Source of the DNA: Dehalococcoidia bacterium
GTDB taxonomy: Bacteria; Chloroflexota; Dehalococcoidia; Dehalococcoidales; UBA1222
Direction: 5' to 3'
DNA length: 44,384 nt
Assembly: GCA_009779255.1 (NCBI GenBank)
Contig: WREQ01000009.1
Location: 1 to 44,384 of the forward strand
In this document: one piece after another, positions 30,314 through 44,384 of the stretch
Layout: every line of letters starts with the position of its first letter
Numbering within the stretch: the first letter of the stretch is position 1
The notes under the pieces: generated by a model
The model's database searches: none
What the model was told of the DNA's origin: nothing
Seen by the model: only the letters and a program-made list of their open reading frames with translations
Made by a program: the position numbers and the translations under genes

Positions 30314-30415
30314 ATTCAGACATTATAATACTGTCGAGGCCATTCGACACATTATGGTCATTGCAGGCTTGACTCCTCTCCCTTTGGCGAAAGGAAGACT
30401 TTGCCCACAGGCAAG

Positions 30416-30534
30416 TAAATCCATGCTGGAGGAACGAGCTTGCGAGTGACGAAGCATCCGGTGGGGCGGTGGATGGTTACTCCACACCTCCAGATCCTTC
30501 GGTCGCTACACTCCCTCCAGGATGGACTTGTACG
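30416..30534 (+). repeat. ~119-bp palindromic dispersed repeat unit
   Basis: TCCATGCTGGAGGAACGAGCTTGCGAGTGACGAAGCATCCGG ... CCAGATCCTTCGGTCGCTACACTCCCTCCAGGATGGA, imperfect inverted-repeat arms. Confidence 0.9.
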
Positions 30535-32065: not shown

Positions 32066-32347
32066 ATGAAAAAACTGCTTATCAGGCTACTAGTTGGTAT
32101 CGCTGGTTTCGTCGTAACGTTAATATTATTCGTAGCGGCAGTATATGTCGTAACCAGGTTTTTTATAGATGATCTTCTAGTATCGGTTGGCGCTGTAATC
32201 GTATTTGTTGTAGTTGCATGCACATTCTTGGTTATCCACGGGCTGCAAAATGTCATGGAAGGAATCGAGTTTGCTATAGGTGAGATACAAAAGGGTCGCA
32301 ATGATAACCAATCCACCGAAACGGGTGACACGTCAGAAGACGAGTGA
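32066..32347 (+). CDS. small two-TM membrane protein
   Basis: 93 aa with two hydrophobic helices and SD GGAGGTG. Confidence 0.65.
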   Translation: MKKLLIRLLVGIAGFVVTLILFVAAVYVVTRFFIDDLLVSVGAVIVFVVVACTFLVIHGLQNVMEGIEFAIGEIQKGRNDNQSTETGDTSEDE

Positions 32348-32375
32348 CGCGTTTTGAACACGGCATGATTCAGGG

Positions 32376-32712
32376 CTGCGAGTGACGAAGCATCTGGAGG
32401 AGGCGGGGAGTAGTAACTGGCACCCCGCCACCAGATCCTTCGGTCGCTACGCTCCCTCCAGGATGGACTTGGTCGTAAATCCATGCTGGAGGAACGAGCC
32501 TGCGAGTGACGAAGCATCCGGTGAGGTGGTGGATGGTTGCTCCCCGCCGCCAGATCCTTCGGTCGCTGCGCTCCCTCCAGGATGGACTTGGTCATAAATC
32601 CATGCTGGAGGAATGAGCTTGCGAGTGACGAAGCATCCGGTGGGGCGGTGGATGGTTGCTCCTCACCACCAGATCCTTCGGTCGCTACGCTCCCTCCAAG
32701 ATGGACTTGGTC
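32376..32712 (+). repeat. array of three palindromic repeat units (first one truncated)
   Basis: TCCATGCTGGAGGAA starts at 32480 and 32599 (period 119 bp), plus a left-truncated unit from 32376. Confidence 0.9.
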
Positions 32713-32837
32713 GAAACTCATAACTGACCACTGCAAACTGATTACTTTCGGCCTTGTGTCACCAATCCCCCGAACTGGTGCCACTGCTTGAGTCCATTCC
32801 GCCCTATCCACTATACTGGTGCCGGTCGGAGGTAAAT

Positions 32838-34043
32838 GTGCTTGACCTGAGCCGTGTAGCCGGACAAATAGGAGAGATGGTGACCAGCCTCAAAACCGGC
32901 TGGCAGGAGCGGCAGAAACATCTGGCCGAAGCTCTTTCTCTGCTTGTGGATAAAAAGCTCGACTTCGAATCCCTCCGGCTCAAGGTCGAACGCAGCTCCG
33001 GCAAAACCACTTTCCTGACAGCCGGTCTGGTGGAACCGCTTGCCACCCGCCATGCACCCCCCACCACTCCGACGAACTTCTCCGTCATCGCCACCGACGG
33101 CTCCCAGATAGACGTAGACCGCCACGCTCCGGCGCGCTGTTATCTGATAAACATAGGTCGCGTGCGGCTGGACTACGGCGAAGGCGCGCGCGCTGAACTG
33201 GAGAGCCTGCCGCGGTTATGCGCCGATGAAAACACGCTGGTGATTTCAGACGGGGTCAGGCAGCAGGCCATTGAAGGCGCGCTTTTGAACATCCGCCGCT
33301 CGGTTGACGAGACCGGACATCTTGCTGAAATGGCGGAAAAACTGCCGGATTCCCGCCCGGCGCTGGCGGTTGTCGACGGCTCTCTCATCCTGTGGGGGCT
33401 GTCCAACAAGGATTATCCCGACTTCGTAGTAGCTGAACTGCTCGACAAGGGTTACATTAAACATCTTGATACCCTGCGCAAAATCGCCGGAGAACGGCAG
33501 TTAGCCCTCGCCAGCTATATCAGCTTCCCACGCTCAGCGGACGTAGTAAATGCGCTTAGGCTGGCGCTGTGCCCGCACAATGCGGCCGACTGCGATAAAT
33601 ACTGCGGGGATACGCCAGTCGGCCGACGCCCCTGCGATAAATTGTCGGGAGTACAGGACCGCGATTTGTTCGCCAGTCTGCTGGACACAGGCGAGCGCTC
33701 GGCGCTGTTTGGAAGCCAGTCCAAAATCGTCAGAGAGAACTACGGCGAACACAGCATCCAATTTTTCTACCTCAAGCTGGAAGATGAAATCGCCCGCGTC
33801 GAGGTACCGGTCTGGATTGCGCATGATAAAGACAGGCTGGAGATGACACACGCGCTGATTCTCGACCAGTGTCGGCGCGGACAGGGCTATCCGGTGGCGC
33901 TCTCCGAAGCCCATGAACAGGCGGTGGTGACTGTCGCCGACCGCGAAAACTTTCAGCGGCTGGTGGAGGTGGAGCTTGCCGGAAGGCACCTGGCCACATC
34001 GGTTTCCGCCAAGAGCCGCAGCAAAAAGACGAGGTGGGTATAA
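32838..34043 (+). CDS. nurA: NurA domain-containing protein (5'-3' nuclease)
   Basis: VIATDGSQIDVDRHAPARCYLINIGRVRLDYG, ALAVVDGSLILW, FYLKL..ARVEVPVWIA; start chosen at GTG 32838 preceded by GGAGGT rather than the longer ORF at 32754. Confidence 0.85.
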   Translation: MLDLSRVAGQIGEMVTSLKTGWQERQKHLAEALSLLVDKKLDFESLRLKVERSSGKTTFLTAGLVEPLATRHAPPTTPTNFSVIATDGSQIDVDRHAPARCYLINIGRVRLDYGEGARAELESLPRLCADENTLVISDGVRQQAIEGALLNIRRSVDETGHLAEMAEKLPDSRPALAVVDGSLILWGLSNKDYPDFVVAELLDKGYIKHLDTLRKIAGERQLALASYISFPRSADVVNALRLALCPHNAADCDKYCGDTPVGRRPCDKLSGVQDRDLFASLLDTGERSALFGSQSKIVRENYGEHSIQFFYLKLEDEIARVEVPVWIAHDKDRLEMTHALILDQCRRGQGYPVALSEAHEQAVVTVADRENFQRLVEVELAGRHLATSVSAKSRSKKTRWV

Positions 34044-35538: not shown

Positions 35539-37149
35539 ATGAATAATGATTCAAGGCTCGGTATGGTGGTCGCCGGCTCTCTTTCCGGGGGTGTGGCGGT
35601 GCGGCTGGACGGAGATGCCTCAGTGGAGGATGTCGTCGTTGGACGCTACGTCAGCATCGAGGGCAAAAAACGCCGTTTCCTAGGCATGATTACCGATGTC
35701 AAGCTGGATACTTCCGACCAGCAGCTCACTATTTCTCCTCCCGACCCTTCCGACACCTTTTCCGCCGAAGTACTCTCCGGCACCGGCGCTTACGGCGTGC
35801 TGACGGTGACACCCTATCTTGTTATCGGCGGCGACCAGACAATTACGGAAGGACCTCAGCCGGTAAAGACTATTCCAAGCCACTTCGCGCCAGTTGGGCT
35901 TGCCAGCGACACCGATATAGAGCAGGTCTTCGGCAAGGAAGACGCCCAACGCTTCTACGTTGGCAACCCGCTGGACATGGAATCCAAACTCTGCCTGAAC
36001 CTGCCGGAGTTGGCAAGACGCAGCAACGGTATTTTCGGCAAAAGCGGCACCGGCAAGACCTTCCTCACCCGCACGCTACTCGTTGGTATGCTACAAAAAG
36101 GCGCCTGCGTGAATCTGGTGTTCGACATGCATTCCGAATACGGTTGGGAGGGTACTTCGGAAAAAGGGCGCAAGGTCAAGGCGCTCAAACAGCTTTTCCC
36201 CTCAAAGGTGGCCATCTTCGCCCTAGATGAAGATAATGCCAGGCGGCGCCAGGTGGCGGCGGATGTCTTCGTCAAAATCGGCTACGACGAGATGGAGCCG
36301 AAGGATATAGCGCTACTCAAACAGACTCTCAACCTCACCGATCTGGCAGTGGAGGCCTCCTTCACCCTGCGCAAGCGCTTCGGCAAAGACTGGATAGTAA
36401 AAACGCTTGAGTTGGAAACAGCGGAAAACGGCGAACAGGAGCTGAAATCGCTCAACATCCACGAGAGCAGTTTTCAGAGCCTGCTAAGGGGACTGACCGC
36501 CATCAAACGGCTCGGCTTCATGCAGCCGCATGTCGAAAGGCGTGCCATCGACCAGCTGCTGGGATATCTGGAGCGCGGCACCCACGTGGTGCTGGAGTTC
36601 GGCCGGTACACCGAAATAACCGCCTACATTCTGGTTTCCAACATGCTGACACGGCGCATCTACGAGCGCTACCGTGAAAACACTGAAACTGCACTCGCCG
36701 GGGACAGAACGCCGCCGACACCCCTGGTCATCACTATCGAGGAGGCACACAAATTCCTCAATCCTGAGGTGGCGCCGCAGACCATCTTCGGCGACATTGC
36801 CCGCGAGATGAGAAAATTCAACTGCACCCTGCTGGTGATCGACCAGCGCCCATCCGGCATCGACCCCGAAGTAATGAGCCAATTGGGCACCAAGATTACC
36901 TGCCTGCTGGATAATGACCGCGACGTGGACGCCGTGCTTTCCGGCATCTCAGGCAAGAGTGAACTAAAGGGTGTGCTGGCCAAGCTGGCGGCAAAACAGC
37001 AGGCGCTGATTTTCGGTCACGCCGTGCCCATGCCGGTGGCTTTCACCCCGCGTGAGTACGGCAGCGCCCAGTCGTACAAAGAGCTGGCGGCTGAAAGCGA
37101 GCGCCCGCCGCAGGACATCGACAAGGATATTGATAATTTGTGGAAGTGA
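35539..37149 (+). CDS. herA: HerA-like ATPase (DUF87)
   Basis: GIFGKSGTGKTFLTRTLLVGML (Walker A), VFDMHSEYGWEG, LVITIEEAHKFLNPE, LLVIDQRPSGIDPEVMSQLGTKI. Confidence 0.93.
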   Translation: MNNDSRLGMVVAGSLSGGVAVRLDGDASVEDVVVGRYVSIEGKKRRFLGMITDVKLDTSDQQLTISPPDPSDTFSAEVLSGTGAYGVLTVTPYLVIGGDQTITEGPQPVKTIPSHFAPVGLASDTDIEQVFGKEDAQRFYVGNPLDMESKLCLNLPELARRSNGIFGKSGTGKTFLTRTLLVGMLQKGACVNLVFDMHSEYGWEGTSEKGRKVKALKQLFPSKVAIFALDEDNARRRQVAADVFVKIGYDEMEPKDIALLKQTLNLTDLAVEASFTLRKRFGKDWIVKTLELETAENGEQELKSLNIHESSFQSLLRGLTAIKRLGFMQPHVERRAIDQLLGYLERGTHVVLEFGRYTEITAYILVSNMLTRRIYERYRENTETALAGDRTPPTPLVITIEEAHKFLNPEVAPQTIFGDIAREMRKFNCTLLVIDQRPSGIDPEVMSQLGTKITCLLDNDRDVDAVLSGISGKSELKGVLAKLAAKQQALIFGHAVPMPVAFTPREYGSAQSYKELAAESERPPQDIDKDIDNLWK

Positions 37150-37258
37150 CATCAACTTATGTTACGTCAGGCTCACCGTAAACGGCTAACGAGACGCGAG
37201 TTTTGAATGACAGGTTTTGATGTCACTCGAGGCTTGACCTACAATCCAGAACAGCCGC

Positions 37259-37736
37259 AAATCCGTGCTGGAGGAATGAGCTTGCGAGTGACGAAGCATC
37301 CGGTGGGGTGGCGGATGGTTACTCCCCGCCACCAGATCCTTCGGTCGCTGCGCTCCCTCCAGGATGGACTTGTACGTAAATTCATGCTGGAGGAACGAGC
37401 CTGCGAGTGACGAAGCATCTGGAGGAGGCGGTGGATGATTGCTCCCCACCTCCAGATCCTTCGGTCGCTACACTCCCTCCAGGATGGACTTGTACGTAAA
37501 TCCATGCTGGAGGAACGAGCCTGCAAGTGACGAAGCATCCGGTGGGGCGGTGAATGGTTACTCCACACCACCAGATCCTTCGGTCGCTGCACTCCCTCCA
37601 GGATGGACTTGGTCATAAATCCATGCTGGAGGAACGAGCCTGCAAGTGACGAAGCATCTGGAGGTACGGTGGATGGTTACCCCCCGCCACCAGATCCTTC
37701 GGTCGCTGCGCTCCCTCCAGGATGGACTTGTACGGG
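37259..37736 (+). repeat. tandem array of four ~119-bp palindromic repeat units
   Basis: Unit starts at about 37262, 37381, 37501 and 37620. Confidence 0.92.
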
Positions 37737-37851
37737 ACTCATAACTGACCACTGAAAGCTGAAAACTGATTGCTTTCGGCCTTGTGTCACCAATCACCTG
37801 AACAGATATCAAGGACTTCTTTAACTTTCCTCATTGCGTTATAATCAAGGC

Positions 37852-38712
37852 ATGGCACGCAAAAAAGTCGGGCTGGCACTGGGTGGCGGCGCTGCACGCG
37901 GACTGGCGCATATCGGCGTTCTGGAAGTCCTTGAAAAAGAGGGCGTCCCTGTGGACGTGGTATCCGGAACCAGCGCCGGAGCCATCTTCGGAGCGCTACA
38001 CGCCGCTGGAATAAGCGCCGTCAGCATCAGAAAGGCCGTGCTGGGACTGGACTGGAAGCAATGGGCGCGCATGCTGGACATCACTATCCCACGCAGCGGA
38101 TTCATCTCCGGCAAGCGCCTCATCAACGAGATCACAACCATCATGGGCGGCAACCTAAAGTTCAGCGACCTCAAAAAACCCTTCGCCTGCGTGGCCTGCG
38201 ATATCGAAACCGGCGAAGAGGCCGTGATGAACGGCGGCTCGGTAGCTGAAGCGATTCACGCCAGCATCTCCATCCCCATTATCTTTCGGGCGGTGCGGCG
38301 CGGGGGACGGTTGCTTGTCGACGGCGGGCTGGTCAACCAGGTGCCGGTAAGCGTGGTTCGCAACATGGGAGCAGACTACGTCATCGCCGTTAACGTGGTG
38401 CCGCGTTACGCCCATACCCGCCCGACGCATCTCGACGACATGGCCATCCCCGAAACAGACCGCCACAGCAAACCCGGCCTCATCAGCATTATGCTCAACG
38501 TAATTGATATCGCCACCTGCGCGCGCGTCGAGGTCAGCCTGCAGGGAGCCGACACCGTCATCGAGACGAACACGCTGGATATAGGCCCGGCCGACTTCCG
38601 CAAGGCGGAGCTGGCGGTGCTGCGGGGGGAATGGGCGGCCGTTGACGCCGTGGCCAAAATCAAGAAAGACTTGGGGTTGGATACAGCAGATGCCAGAGGT
38701 GAAGAGGCCTGA
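37852..38712 (+). CDS. patatin-like phospholipase family protein
   Basis: LALGGGAARGLAHIGVLEVLEKEG, VSGTSAGAIFGAL, LLVDGGLVNQVPV. Confidence 0.93.
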   Translation: MARKKVGLALGGGAARGLAHIGVLEVLEKEGVPVDVVSGTSAGAIFGALHAAGISAVSIRKAVLGLDWKQWARMLDITIPRSGFISGKRLINEITTIMGGNLKFSDLKKPFACVACDIETGEEAVMNGGSVAEAIHASISIPIIFRAVRRGGRLLVDGGLVNQVPVSVVRNMGADYVIAVNVVPRYAHTRPTHLDDMAIPETDRHSKPGLISIMLNVIDIATCARVEVSLQGADTVIETNTLDIGPADFRKAELAVLRGEWAAVDAVAKIKKDLGLDTADARGEEA

Positions 38713-38766: not shown

Positions 38767-38843
<77 letters not shown>

Positions 38844-39010
38844 ATGAACCTTGGACGAACACCTACTATTTCCGCGGTGGTTTTGCCGTTACTGTTTGGT
38901 TCCAAGGTTGCGACATATAACGCCCAAAAACGCTAAGAGCCGCATTCACGCCAGTCATCATCACATCCCAAGGGAATGTTGCCTACTCACGAATGGCATT
39001 GTGGCACAAG

Positions 39011-39414
39011 TTAATACTTCAGTCTGTCCACCTCAACTAGATTGAGCACTTCATCTTTGGCAGCTTGGGAGACAGCGTAGTCGCTGAAACGCCGTTTGGT
39101 AAAGATGTAAACATGGCTGTCATCATATTCGTTTATCAGCGATACTGCACGTCGTAGCTTTTCTAGTTCTGTCTCGGTACAGCTTTCAAGCGGATTACGG
39201 AATACCTTGATGAAGAGAGCTTTTTGCTTGTATCTGACTATGGCGTCAAAGGTGTGTTGAATCTGCCCTCTTTAACAATCACAGGCAAGTACGTTACTTC
39301 ATTGTGAGAGCGGAATGTCCTTTTCAATTTAATCTTGAATATTGCATTCATCCACTTAAAGGCTTTCCGCAGATGGAATCTGGGGATTTCAGTATCTGAT
39401 ACGAGTATTGCGTC
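39011..39414 (-). pseudogene. 5'-truncated, frameshifted remnant of an unknown gene
   Basis: Minus-strand reading DAILVSDTEIPRFHLRKAFKWMNAIFKIKLKRTFRSHNEVTYLPVIVKEG / frameshift near 39265-39270 / QIQHTFDAIVRYKQKALFIKVFRNPLESCTETELEKLRRAVSLINEYDDSHVYIFTKRRFSDYAVSQAAKDEVLNLVEVDRLKY*. Confidence 0.65.
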
Positions 39415-39566
39415 TTATTGGCACATGATGAACCAAAAAAGTGTTGGCATCTTAATCAGGAAATCCTAGCATTTATAATCACATATTCATTGTGGTTTTG
39501 AAACTGGTACAATAATCAGGTTGGCAGGTTAATGGAATCCACTTTTAACGAAAGGAACAGACTGTA

Positions 39567-42500
39567 ATGACTTCAATAATTGATAATAAAGAACGTAAAA
39601 TGGTGGAAGCGTTAAGAAACTCATTACAACAGGCAGAAAGGGTTGATATTCTGACTGCGTTCTTTTATTTTTCAGGATTTGAACTTTTAGCCGAAGAACT
39701 AAAAGACAAAAAAATACGCATTTTGGTTGGAAATACCATTGACCCCGAAACTATAAGCGAACTAAGCAAAAGCATTAAAAATAACCAAAACCCCAAACTT
39801 GAACGCTATGTAAGCCGGTCATACGACGAGTTAAGCAATTTGCTAAAAAGAGAGCAGTACATTGAGAGCTTTATTGGCTTGTTTAACCAGTCTGCGCTAT
39901 CCGAGCAGTTTGACGGTACAGAAAGTCAAAAAGTGTTCAAGATGTTTTTAGACAAATTAAGCAACGGCACTTTGGAAATTCGTCTGACGAATGAAGATAA
40001 TCACGCAAAAGCATATATCCTTACCAATAAAAGGGAGTTCTCTTGCAACGGCGACCAAAGAGGCGTTATATTTATGGGTTCGTCAAACTTTACTTACAGT
40101 GGGCTACTCGGTCAAGGCGAAGTAAATAAAAGGTTTAGCGATAATGCAGATTATGAGGAACACTCCCAGCTTTTTGAAAGTTTATGGAACGACAGTAACG
40201 CAATTAACATTTGCGTTAAAGATAAGAACGATGACTTTGTAAATGAGGTCAAAAAGAAGCTATGGCTCTACGCAACTCCTGCGCCGTATAGTGTGTTTAT
40301 CCGAATTTTGTTTGAATTATATTCCTCGCTTGACAATTGCGATGTGAAAAATCCAAAAGAAATATCTGGCGGCAAATTCTCAAACCTCAAGTATCAAATA
40401 GACGCGATTAAGCTGGGCGTTGATTGTATCAATAAGAATGACGGCGTTATTATTGCCGATGTTGTAGGTTTGGGAAAATCAATTATTGCTTCCGCAATCG
40501 CCCATAATTTAGATATTGGCAAGACTGTAATTATCGCCCCGCCGCACCTATGCGACCAGTGGGACGAATACCAGCAAGACTTTGGGCTTCGTGGCGCAAA
40601 GGTTTGGAGTAGCGGAAAAATTGAGGCGGCATATCAAGAATATGCGACTGACCCTAAACCTATCTTGTTTATTATTGACGAGGCGCACCGTTACCGCAAC
40701 GAACTTTGCGAAACATATCAATACTTGCACCAGTTGACCCGTTCAAACCCGAACAACAAGGTTATTCTATTGACGGCGACACCATACAATAATCGTCCGC
40801 AAGACTTGTTTGCTCTTGTTAAGTTGTTTCAGACACCCAGCCGTTCAACAATTAGCTCGGTAGATAATTTAAGCGTCCGCTTTCACGAACTTATTGCAAA
40901 ATATAACCGCTTAGAAAAAGAGGGCAAAAAAAGTTTGACCCCCGAAATAAAGGTCGAATTGGAAATATTAAGCCAGCAGTTACGCACTTTGATTGCTCCC
41001 GTTGTCGTTCGCCGTAGCCGCATTGACCTAAAAGAAATTAAAGAATATGCCGAAGATTTAGAAATACAAGGTATAAAGTTTCCCGAAGTCGTCGGGCCTA
41101 ATTTGTTGCAATACGATTTAGGAAGCATTGAAAGCCTTTATATCTCAACGCTCGAACGACTGCTCAACAATTTTGAAGCCGCCCGTTATAATTCGACAGG
41201 CTACTTGGAAAACCCTGCCGAGTTTATGGAAAAATACGGCGAACTGTTTGAAGATACCGATATTTCACAGGCGCAAAAGAACTTGGCGTCATTTGTAAGG
41301 CGATTGCTTGTTATGCGGTTTGAAAGCTCAAAAGCCGCTTTCAAAGTAACCTTAGATAACATACTGCTGTCGTACACCAACATTAAAAAATGGTGGGAAA
41401 ACGATTATGTGCCGATTAAAAAGAAAGGCTCAATGCCCGATTTTGACGAACAAGAAATTGAAGAAACGCTTGCCGAGATTGGGGACTTAGACGGTGAGGG
41501 CATTGACCTTAATAAAATTAAGAAAAAAGCAATTCCGATACCTGCGGCAATGTTTAAGCCCGAATACATTTGCAAGATTGAGCAAGACATAGAACTTCTG
41601 ACCTCTATTAAGAATGAGTGGTTTTCTTGTGATGAGTTAGGTGATGACCCGAAATTTACCAGAGTAAAGGAACAAATTACCGCATTACTTAAAGAAAACA
41701 AAAGGCGCAAAATTGTCATATTCTCAACCTTTGCAGATACGGCAAAGTATGTTAAGGAGTCGTTGACCGCCGCCGGTTTCCGCGCTTTCCTTTATACGGG
41801 CGGTTCGGAAAAATCTGACCGCATTGTTGTCAAAGCAAATTTTGACGCATCATTTGCAACAGAAATGCAAAAAGACGATTACGACATTATTGTTGCCACA
41901 GACGCACTAAGCGAGGGCTTTAACCTTAACCGTGCCGGCGCGATTATCAACTACGATATTCCCTATAACCCAACGAGAGTTGTGCAAAGGATTGGGCGTA
42001 TTAACCGTATAAATAAAAAAATGTTTGACGAGATTTGCATTTTCAATTTATTTCCGACAGACATTGGCGAAAGAGTTACTCTCATTCGCGGTATATCCAA
42101 ACTTAAAATGCTACTCATAAACAACATCGTCGGTAGCGATACCAAAACGCTTACGCCCGATGAAACGCTGGAAAGCTACTTCAAAAATCAATTTTTAGAA
42201 GCTGACAATGAGGCCAGCGAACGAAGTTGGGATAATGATTACAGAAATATCTATAACGGCATAAGGCATAATGCTGACTTGCTTGCCGAGGTTAATAGAA
42301 TACCGGCACGAGCAAGAATCGTCCGCAAAGGCAGCAAGGAAGAAGTTGCTATTTCCTTTGCTAAACGAGGCAATAACGCTTTATTTGCATTGGCATTGCC
42401 GCATATGAGCGAAGCCGAACTATTGCCGGTTGAAACAGTGCTGGCTCATTTCAAAGCGGAACGGAACGAAACAGGCTATCCGTTTGACGAAGAGGTAGAT

Positions 42501-42851
42501 AAAAAATTTGCAATATTACGCGCCGAAATACTGCGGTCGTACCCTAAAAACAAACTCGTCCCCAAGCGCGGTAAAGCAATTACAAATTTAGAAAAATTGC
42601 TTGCGGCCTACCCCCTAGAAAAAGACTACATAAACGACCTAATTGAAGTCATAAAAATTTATGACGATTTAAGCGACGGCGAGCTAAAATATATTGCAAA
42701 CTTCCGAATAAGAAAAGACAATCTAAGAGAGGTCGTGGCCGAATTAAAGGAAAAAGTGCCAGAACGCTATATAATGAGCATTAAGAAAAAGGTGTCCGGC
42801 ATTGATGCCCAAGTCGAAGTCATAATGTTTACGGAGGATATTCGTAAATGA
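39567..42851 (+). CDS. PLD-like nuclease domain fused to SF2/SNF2-type helicase
   Basis: N-terminal HAKAYI..GSSNFTYSGL (PLD half-site), DVVGLGKSIIASAIA, FIIDEAHRYRN, LLTATPYNNRPQDLF, RVVQRIGRINRINK. Confidence 0.9.
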   Translation: MTSIIDNKERKMVEALRNSLQQAERVDILTAFFYFSGFELLAEELKDKKIRILVGNTIDPETISELSKSIKNNQNPKLERYVSRSYDELSNLLKREQYIESFIGLFNQSALSEQFDGTESQKVFKMFLDKLSNGTLEIRLTNEDNHAKAYILTNKREFSCNGDQRGVIFMGSSNFTYSGLLGQGEVNKRFSDNADYEEHSQLFESLWNDSNAINICVKDKNDDFVNEVKKKLWLYATPAPYSVFIRILFELYSSLDNCDVKNPKEISGGKFSNLKYQIDAIKLGVDCINKNDGVIIADVVGLGKSIIASAIAHNLDIGKTVIIAPPHLCDQWDEYQQDFGLRGAKVWSSGKIEAAYQEYATDPKPILFIIDEAHRYRNELCETYQYLHQLTRSNPNNKVILLTATPYNNRPQDLFALVKLFQTPSRSTISSVDNLSVRFHELIAKYNRLEKEGKKSLTPEIKVELEILSQQLRTLIAPVVVRRSRIDLKEIKEYAEDLEIQGIKFPEVVGPNLLQYDLGSIESLYISTLERLLNNFEAARYNSTGYLENPAEFMEKYGELFEDTDISQAQKNLASFVRRLLVMRFESSKAAFKVTLDNILLSYTNIKKWWENDYVPIKKKGSMPDFDEQEIEETLAEIGDLDGEGIDLNKIKKKAIPIPAAMFKPEYICKIEQDIELLTSIKNEWFSCDELGDDPKFTRVKEQITALLKENKRRKIVIFSTFADTAKYVKESLTAAGFRAFLYTGGSEKSDRIVVKANFDASFATEMQKDDYDIIVATDALSEGFNLNRAGAIINYDIPYNPTRVVQRIGRINRINKKMFDEICIFNLFPTDIGERVTLIRGISKLKMLLINNIVGSDTKTLTPDETLESYFKNQFLEADNEASERSWDNDYRNIYNGIRHNADLLAEVNRIPARARIVRKGSKEEVAISFAKRGNNALFALALPHMSEAELLPVETVLAHFKAERNETGYPFDEEVDKKFAILRAEILRSYPKNKLVPKRGKAITNLEKLLAAYPLEKDYINDLIEVIKIYDDLSDGELKYIANFRIRKDNLREVVAELKEKVPERYIMSIKKKVSGIDAQVEVIMFTEDIRK

Positions 42852-44384
42852 TAACAGCACAAGAAGAACAGGAAATCCTAGAAAAAGAGTACCACCAGGA
42901 CAACTTTGCTTGGGTAGCGAATCATCTATTACCCGACTATAAGGCGAGCGAGTATAGCGTTGGTTTCAACAACCAACTCTTTCAAAGCGTTACGGAACTT
43001 GGGACTTCCAAAGCCTGTGATGTAACAATATACGAGGTCATTTTGAAAGACGGCGTTGAAAAACGCCGTGTGCAAATAACGCAGGAAATGTTTAAGGTGC
43101 TTAGAGGAGGTCAAATCAACAATGCCTTTGTTGTGTTCAGCAATGCCAATAGGCAAAACTTCCGCATATCTCTTCTGACAAGCAATTACGAATGGCAAGG
43201 CGAAAAGATTGTCAAGATACTCTCCAACCCTCGCCGTTATTCGTACAGCTTGGGCAAAGGCGCAAAAACCAAAACCGCAGATAAATTCTTGATTAGGGAC
43301 GGCAAAGTAAATTCACTTTCAGGCTTGCTGGGTCGGTTCTCGGTTGAGGTTGTAAACAAAGAGTTTTACAATAAAATTGCAACACAATTTACAAAATTGG
43401 TCGGTGGACAAAGGGACGGGGTAACATACAAAAAACTTCTAAACTTATACAGTGTTACCGACCAAAACAAACACGCCGAGTTTGCAGTTCGTATAATTGG
43501 ACGAATCGTCTTTTGCTGGTTCCTAAAAGAAAAGAAGAGTAAAAATGGCTTGTCTCTTATTCCTGAGGAAATTCTTTCAAAGGGAAGTATAGAACAAAAC
43601 CCCAACTACTATCACACCGTATTAGAGCCGTTGTTTTTTGAAGTATTGAACACAAAAATTGAACGCCGCAATGATAAATTTGCAACCGCAGAAATATATC
43701 GGCAAATCCCCTATCTAAACGGCGGCCTGTTTTGTCCGCACGCCGATGACCTTTACAAATATGACAAATCTTTGCAGGTCGGTGCTTTTGGGCTTGTTGA
43801 AATACCCGACAAATGGTTTGAAGAACTTTACACGGTTTTAAGCGAATATAATTTCACGGTTGACGAAAACACTTCTTACGACATAGAGCTTTCTATTGAC
43901 CCCGAAATGTTGGGGCGCATATTTGAAAACCTACTTGCCGAAATCAACCCCGAAACAGGCGAGAGCGCAAAGAAGTCAACGGGCAGTTTTTATACGCCAA
44001 GAGATATTGTTGACTATATGGTGGATAGCAGTATTTATGAATATCTGCGTGAAAAGACCGGCGTTGACGGAGAGAAGCTGAGAGCCGTTATAAGTTATGG
44101 CAAGGAAGACGCCGAGAGTTTTAAGCTAGAGATAAGCGAAAAGAAAAAGATTGTAACCGCCTTATACGAAATGAAAACGCTTGATCCTGCTTGTGGCTCC
44201 GGGGCATTTCCGATAGGGTTGCTCCAAAAAATTGTCTATATTTTCAAAGATATTGACCCGGAAGCAAAGCTTTGGTTCGACAAAGCATCCGAAGGCATGA
44301 CTGACAGTTTTGCTAAGAGGTTGTTCGAAAAGCAATTTACTGCTAATTCGCTCGAATACATGCTTAAACTTAGTGTTATTCAAA
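42848..44384 (+). CDS. N6-adenine DNA methyltransferase, Eco57I/type IIG/PglX-like (partial, runs off window)
   Basis: Not in the supplied track; open frame from ATG 42848 (ATGA overlap with helicase stop) to the window edge; contains STGSFYTPRDIVDYMVDSSIYEYL and motif I LDPACGSGAFPIGLLQKI. Confidence 0.88.
   Translation, partial: MITAQEEQEILEKEYHQDNFAWVANHLLPDYKASEYSVGFNNQLFQSVTELGTSKACDVTIYEVILKDGVEKRRVQITQEMFKVLRGGQINNAFVVFSNANRQNFRISLLTSNYEWQGEKIVKILSNPRRYSYSLGKGAKTKTADKFLIRDGKVNSLSGLLGRFSVEVVNKEFYNKIATQFTKLVGGQRDGVTYKKLLNLYSVTDQNKHAEFAVRIIGRIVFCWFLKEKKSKNGLSLIPEEILSKGSIEQNPNYYHTVLEPLFFEVLNTKIERRNDKFATAEIYRQIPYLNGGLFCPHADDLYKYDKSLQVGAFGLVEIPDKWFEELYTVLSEYNFTVDENTSYDIELSIDPEMLGRIFENLLAEINPETGESAKKSTGSFYTPRDIVDYMVDSSIYEYLREKTGVDGEKLRAVISYGKEDAESFKLEISEKKKIVTALYEMKTLDPACGSGAFPIGLLQKIVYIFKDIDPEAKLWFDKASEGMTDSFAKRLFEKQFTANSLEYMLKLSVIQ

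Follow-up and report, generated by a model that had tools for sequence, protein, structure and literature searches.

Type ISP enzymes such as LlaGI and LlaBIII unite a nuclease, a superfamily 2 (SF2) translocase, a gamma-class methylase and a C-terminal target-recognition domain (TRD) in a single polypeptide, and their nuclease is Mrr-like (PMC3874165, PMC4666363). In the type IV enzyme SauUSI, an N-terminal PLD half-site domain is fused to an SF2 motor, and a dimer forms the composite active site (PMC7913695). SauUSI has no partner methylase and recognises methylated DNA through a C-terminal domain of its own. The restriction-modification systems CglI and NgoAVII also have a PLD nuclease and an SF2 helicase-like ATPase; their R protein (PLD plus a B3 recognition domain) is separate from H and holds the TRD (PMC7913695). 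Among larger systems, DISARM class I (DrmD, DrmMI) and ARMADA (ArmA, ArmB) place a SNF2/RapA-like helicase beside a PglX-like adenine methylase (PMC12458937), and the Hma or DUF499-centred type-2 BR systems have an HKD-SNF2 helicase plus an N6-methylase (PMC12839542). HKD is likewise fused to an SF2 helicase in PbeA of PbeABCD, one of the CxC-ABC ATPase systems (PMC10853773). A helicase-methylase pair is common to DISARM, ARMADA, BREX-3 and Hma/BR. The locus described here encodes such a pair, with the nuclease fused to the helicase.

A nuclease-helicase gene overlapping a methylase gene

The operon lies at the right-hand end of a 44384-base contig from a Dehalococcoidia metagenome-assembled genome (MAG; 1.14 Mb, 60 contigs, 77% complete); the window, meaning the whole stretch of DNA analysed, is this entire contig. 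The first gene (39567..42851, forward strand, stop included; ORF and Pfam) starts with ATG and encodes an HKD/PLD nuclease-SNF2 helicase of 1094 aa, the putative R subunit. Its nuclease domain (PLDc_2, residues 20-207, 39624..40187; E 7.6e-10, over the Pfam cut-off) has one HKD half-site, H146-x-K148 ... G171-S-S-N174. A SNF2/RapA-like SF2 motor follows at residues ~274-816 (40386..42014), matched in Pfam by SNF2-rel_dom/ResIII and Helicase_C (the latter with E 1.4e-19) and carrying Walker A GLGK304, DEAH at 371-374 and motif VI R808/R811/R814. These domains and motif residues substantiate the half-site and complete helicase that the preliminary description had noted in this protein. In an alignment of homologues about 25-66% identical to the window protein, H146, K148, G171, S172 and N174 are kept in all 129 sequences covering the site, and 129-130 of 130 sequences have the helicase motif residues; the nuclease-helicase thus looks active. 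SauUSI has an acidic residue downstream of HxK (HxKx4E); in these HKD-SNF2 homologues it is not conserved.

AlphaFold2 predicts the helicase with confidence (mean pLDDT 84), and the top PDB fold matches of the model are RapA and SNF2 motors. SauUSI (7clg) is also matched along most of its length, although the overall TM-score is low because the domains are placed differently. PADLOC model C3a139, 'HKD+Snf2', matches such helicases across most of their length, so this kind of protein is already catalogued as a defence candidate.

The second gene (42848..44384, forward strand; ORF and Pfam) encodes the first 512 aa of an Eco57I-class N6-adenine DNA methylase, the putative M+S subunit. Because the contig ends at 44384, the methylase is truncated at residue 512, ahead of NPPY and the TRD; the remainder is absent from all other contigs of the 77%-complete MAG, where a search returned the known end alone. 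The helicase stop at 42851 and the methylase start at 42848 form the ATGA overlap reported earlier (42848..42851, forward strand), and translational coupling is likely. The methylase motifs picked out at first reading also stand: motif X is YTPRDIVDYMV (382-392) and motif I DPACGSGAF (446-454), together at 43991..44210 on the forward strand, and N6_Mtase scores over its Pfam cut-off. Y382, T383, D446 and G450 occur in 100 of 100 methylase homologues, and NPPY in 96 of 99 relative methylases, the other three having NPPW/F. With motifs I and X, and likewise NPPY, near-invariant in relatives, the methylase looks active. Full-length relatives have an Eco57I domain and mostly TaqI_C, a TaqI-like specificity domain, as well. 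The full-length methylase of locus L087, 64% identical to that of the window, was modelled (pLDDT 77), and the fold matches of this model, to CamA, M.BseCI, PglX/BrxX, MmeI and BpuSI, support N6-adenine chemistry.

The N-terminal part of the methylase had been thought to include a nuclease or a specificity module. Its first ~160 aa form an alpha/beta domain (42848..43327, forward strand; model and homologue alignment), and no nuclease set D...(D/E)xK is conserved there across about 98 homologues; judging from relatives, specificity sits C-terminally, past the contig end. Neither module is thus borne out. The missing catalytic set bears equally on the idea of a type IIG enzyme, in which the methylase would cut with its own N-terminal nuclease and the helicase would be an accessory. 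Such an idea might draw on the top PADLOC matches, which are REase_MTase_IIG models, on a weak match to the MmeI helical spacer and on the presence of BpuSI and MmeI among the fold matches, but the best IIG model aligns to the window methylase only from residue 162, and we consider a type IIG enzyme very unlikely.

The operon falls in a segment that is AT-richer than the upstream core, as first described, with a GC content of 0.41 over 39001-44384 versus 0.56 in the rest of the window. This segment starts shortly 3' of a tRNA-Ala(TGC) gene (38767..38842, forward strand), the last feature ahead of it and a possible integration site; no second copy of the tRNA-Ala 3' end, as an attachment-site duplicate, was found in the 77%-complete MAG. 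The best helicase homologues are 66% identical and come from Clostridia MAGs, whereas the best from sampled Chloroflexota, the phylum of the window itself, reach ~33%, and together with the low GC this suggests that the pair was acquired horizontally, as a mobile defence cassette would be. Alternatively, the GC break near 38.9-39.5 kb may be a chimeric contig join. Between the tRNA gene and the helicase gene is an apparent decayed gene with frameshifts (39010-39420, reverse strand), which has no match among the neighbours of the pair's relatives. Further upstream, genes for bacterial NurA (32754-34043) and HerA (35539-37149) lie close together on either side of a HicB antitoxin gene. Around them, in intergenic DNA, runs a tandem and dispersed repeat family with a period of ~119 nt (30415-30530, 32301-32838 and 37202-37859), copies of whose 116-nt unit are 65-96% alike.

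Pairing and exchange of parts among relatives

A single-sequence helicase query returned no match from genome contigs; an alignment-based query did retrieve relatives from them. Helicase homologues occur on plasmids, in Chloroflexota and in many other phyla (among them Bacillota, Bacteroidota, Patescibacteria, Elusimicrobia, Planctomycetota and Spirochaetes), and also in Pelagibacteraceae, and the pair stands by itself as a unit across many bacterial phyla and in some archaea. A methylase adjoins the helicase in 69 of 80 genome loci spread over many phyla, and in 63 it lies directly downstream on the same strand. Spacing in the 80 loci is 40 bases or less in 49, with an overlap in 35 and an exact ATGA-type 4-base overlap in 20; among relatives with a downstream methylase, 25 of 77 have the 4-base overlap seen in the window. 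As for the 11 loci that lack a methylase, the contig ends less than 1.6 kb downstream in eight, two start at a contig edge and one has 1.8 kb upstream only. Some relatives, from haloarchaea, Nostoc and Thermus, have a different gene order or extra genes in between. Phage records gave a single weak, partial match. Near relatives of the pair (41-59% identity) are found on contigs catalogued as viral in IMG/VR (L152-L155), and both proteins of one of these, L153, are identical to those of a bacterial MAG locus, L089.

The contig stops inside the methylase, and the operon might therefore be a fragment of DISARM class I, ARMADA, BREX type 3 or Hma/type-2 BR, with the remaining genes past the contig end. 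Helicase and methylase do resemble the DrmD/DrmMI, HmaA and BrxHII/PglX models, and type-2 BR helicases also have an N-terminal HKD domain (PMC12839542). Yet model scores fall far under the family cut-offs (152 bits for DrmD versus 610), and DUF499, PglZ and DUF1998 are not among the recurrent neighbour families of the relatives. An all-against-all neighbour comparison over 34 loci revealed no conserved third gene, and when 126 neighbours were tallied by Pfam no third family proved conserved either, the tally yielding only resolvases, detached TaqI_C, AlbA_2 and scattered others. On a circular 11.8-kb Lactiplantibacillus plasmid, the helicase and methylase are accompanied only by rep, an HTH gene, a toxin-antitoxin pair, an integrase and one small ORF. 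For the family, complete loci largely refute a fragment of a larger system, and for the window we regard one as improbable. The preliminary description of a putative defence operon of two genes, with components in common with DISARM, BREX and type ISP systems yet not obviously any of them, agrees with this conservation of the pair across phyla, and its view that the system is not a canonical one is upheld by the lack of a conserved third gene in relatives and by the failure to find DUF499 or PglZ in the 77%-complete MAG.

Helicase and methylase do not diverge in step along their whole length. Helicase distance correlates strongly with that of the methylase N-terminus (r=0.92; permutation maximum 0.13) and with that of the methylase core (r=0.76), but hardly with that of the part after NPPY (r=0.18). 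In the 35 locus pairs whose helicases share 70-98% identity, median methylase identity is 67% in the N-terminus, 72% in the core and 27% after NPPY. Loci L106 and L123, for instance, are 85% identical in the helicase, 83% in the N-terminus and 84% in the core but 26% after NPPY, and the corresponding values for L110 and L003 are 81%, 78%, 89% and 28%. A conserved core followed by a divergent post-NPPY part, next to a helicase that changes little, is the pattern that TRD exchange leaves; the TRD, ahead of which the window copy ends, is thus swapped between relatives. Since the helicase stays nearly unchanged across these swaps, the methylase would supply specificity and the helicase presumably takes its target from it. 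The methylase N-terminal domain, whose divergence tracks that of the helicase, we infer to be a docking domain for the helicase.

These patterns also speak to a SauUSI-like, type IV-like explanation, in which the HKD-helicase alone would cut modified DNA and the methylase would be a separate orphan. The order of domains is shared (PLD nuclease, then SF2 motor) and SauUSI is a long fold match, but constant pairing, frequent gene overlap, correlated divergence and a helicase that is conserved while the methylase TRD swaps all make an independent helicase quite improbable.

In ten relatives an Mpi-like serine invertase adjoins the methylase (L048, L049, L075, L076, L098, L128, L134, L160, L163 and L164; from Bacteroidota, Clostridia and Lactococcus). 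Most of these loci have inverted repeats within the recognition part or carry an alternative TRD cassette in reversed orientation. The methylase's recognition part at L076 contains repeats of 79 and 37 bp, both of which recur inverted downstream, where they flank a reversed open frame that encodes a second version of the recognition half; the invertase comes next, and several further invertase loci share this layout. Specificity is apparently phase-variable in the invertase-bearing relatives, and invertase-driven specificity switching is known in other restriction-modification systems.

A putative two-subunit restriction-modification system

We propose that the pair is probably a two-subunit ATP-dependent restriction-modification system. 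The methylase would consist of an N-terminal docking domain, a helical spacer, a gamma-class N6-adenine methylase and a C-terminal TRD, and would both mark host sites and supply sequence specificity (M+S). The HKD-SNF2 protein, as the R subunit, would bind the methylase where a site is unmodified and translocate along DNA by its SNF2/RapA-like motor, and would cut once two HKD half-sites have come together in a dimer to form a single active centre, the arrangement known from SauUSI. The proposal draws on domain content, catalytic residues, pairing, correlated divergence and TRD swapping in relatives, all computed here; complex formation, translocation, cleavage and an anti-phage effect of the pair we infer from sequence. 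As in ATP-dependent restriction-modification systems generally, a nuclease, an SF2 motor and a sequence-specific methylase are encoded together, and in relatives the TRD is variable and exchangeable.

A literature search of partial coverage, which took in few subscription journals, found no paper naming the pair as a system. Given this partial coverage and the existing PADLOC 'HKD+Snf2' model, our claim is to an unnamed variant, not to a new principle. We put at about even odds the broader claim that the pair represents an unnamed, phylum-spanning class of two-protein ATP-dependent restriction-modification systems, in which a SNF2 helicase with fused HKD nuclease and an adenine methylase work alone as a pair and recognition is invertase-switched in several lineages. 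If the pair does work alone, it would be a minimal form of the helicase-methylase module found inside several multi-gene defence systems. The mechanism of those systems is debated, and a stand-alone pair would isolate the module's own role. With its swappable, phase-variable TRDs, the pair could in addition provide new specificities for methylation and restriction.

Comparison with known systems

Among the larger systems, Hma/type-2 BR comes close in that an HKD-SNF2 helicase and an N6-methylase are both present here, but the DUF499 ATPase does not recur beside relatives, nor is DUF3780 among their recurrent neighbours. What sets the pair apart from DISARM class I and ARMADA is its helicase-fused PLD nuclease and, as far as the neighbours of relatives show, the lack of YprA-like helicase and DUF1998 partners. 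DrmA/DrmB (DUF1998/MZB) do not recur among the 126 neighbours of relatives, the window itself having no right flank beyond 44384, and the sole MZB/DUF1998 match in the MAG is a 770-aa ORF on a different contig. For ARMADA, no YprA-type family recurs in the relatives' neighbours, counted over top families only, and for BREX, PglZ is neither present in what the 77%-complete MAG covers nor recurrent in relatives. PbeA gave a weak PADLOC match, but in place of an Eco57I methylase it is partnered by an ABC ATPase and a DndE homologue. CglI and NgoAVII differ in keeping nuclease and helicase on separate proteins and the TRD on the nuclease. From type ISP the pair is set apart by its two genes and HKD nuclease in place of one polypeptide with an Mrr-type nuclease, and from SauUSI by its partner methylase. 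By analogy, the pair would act as a type ISP enzyme divided over two proteins and equipped with a nuclease-motor of the SauUSI type, while being a member of neither group.
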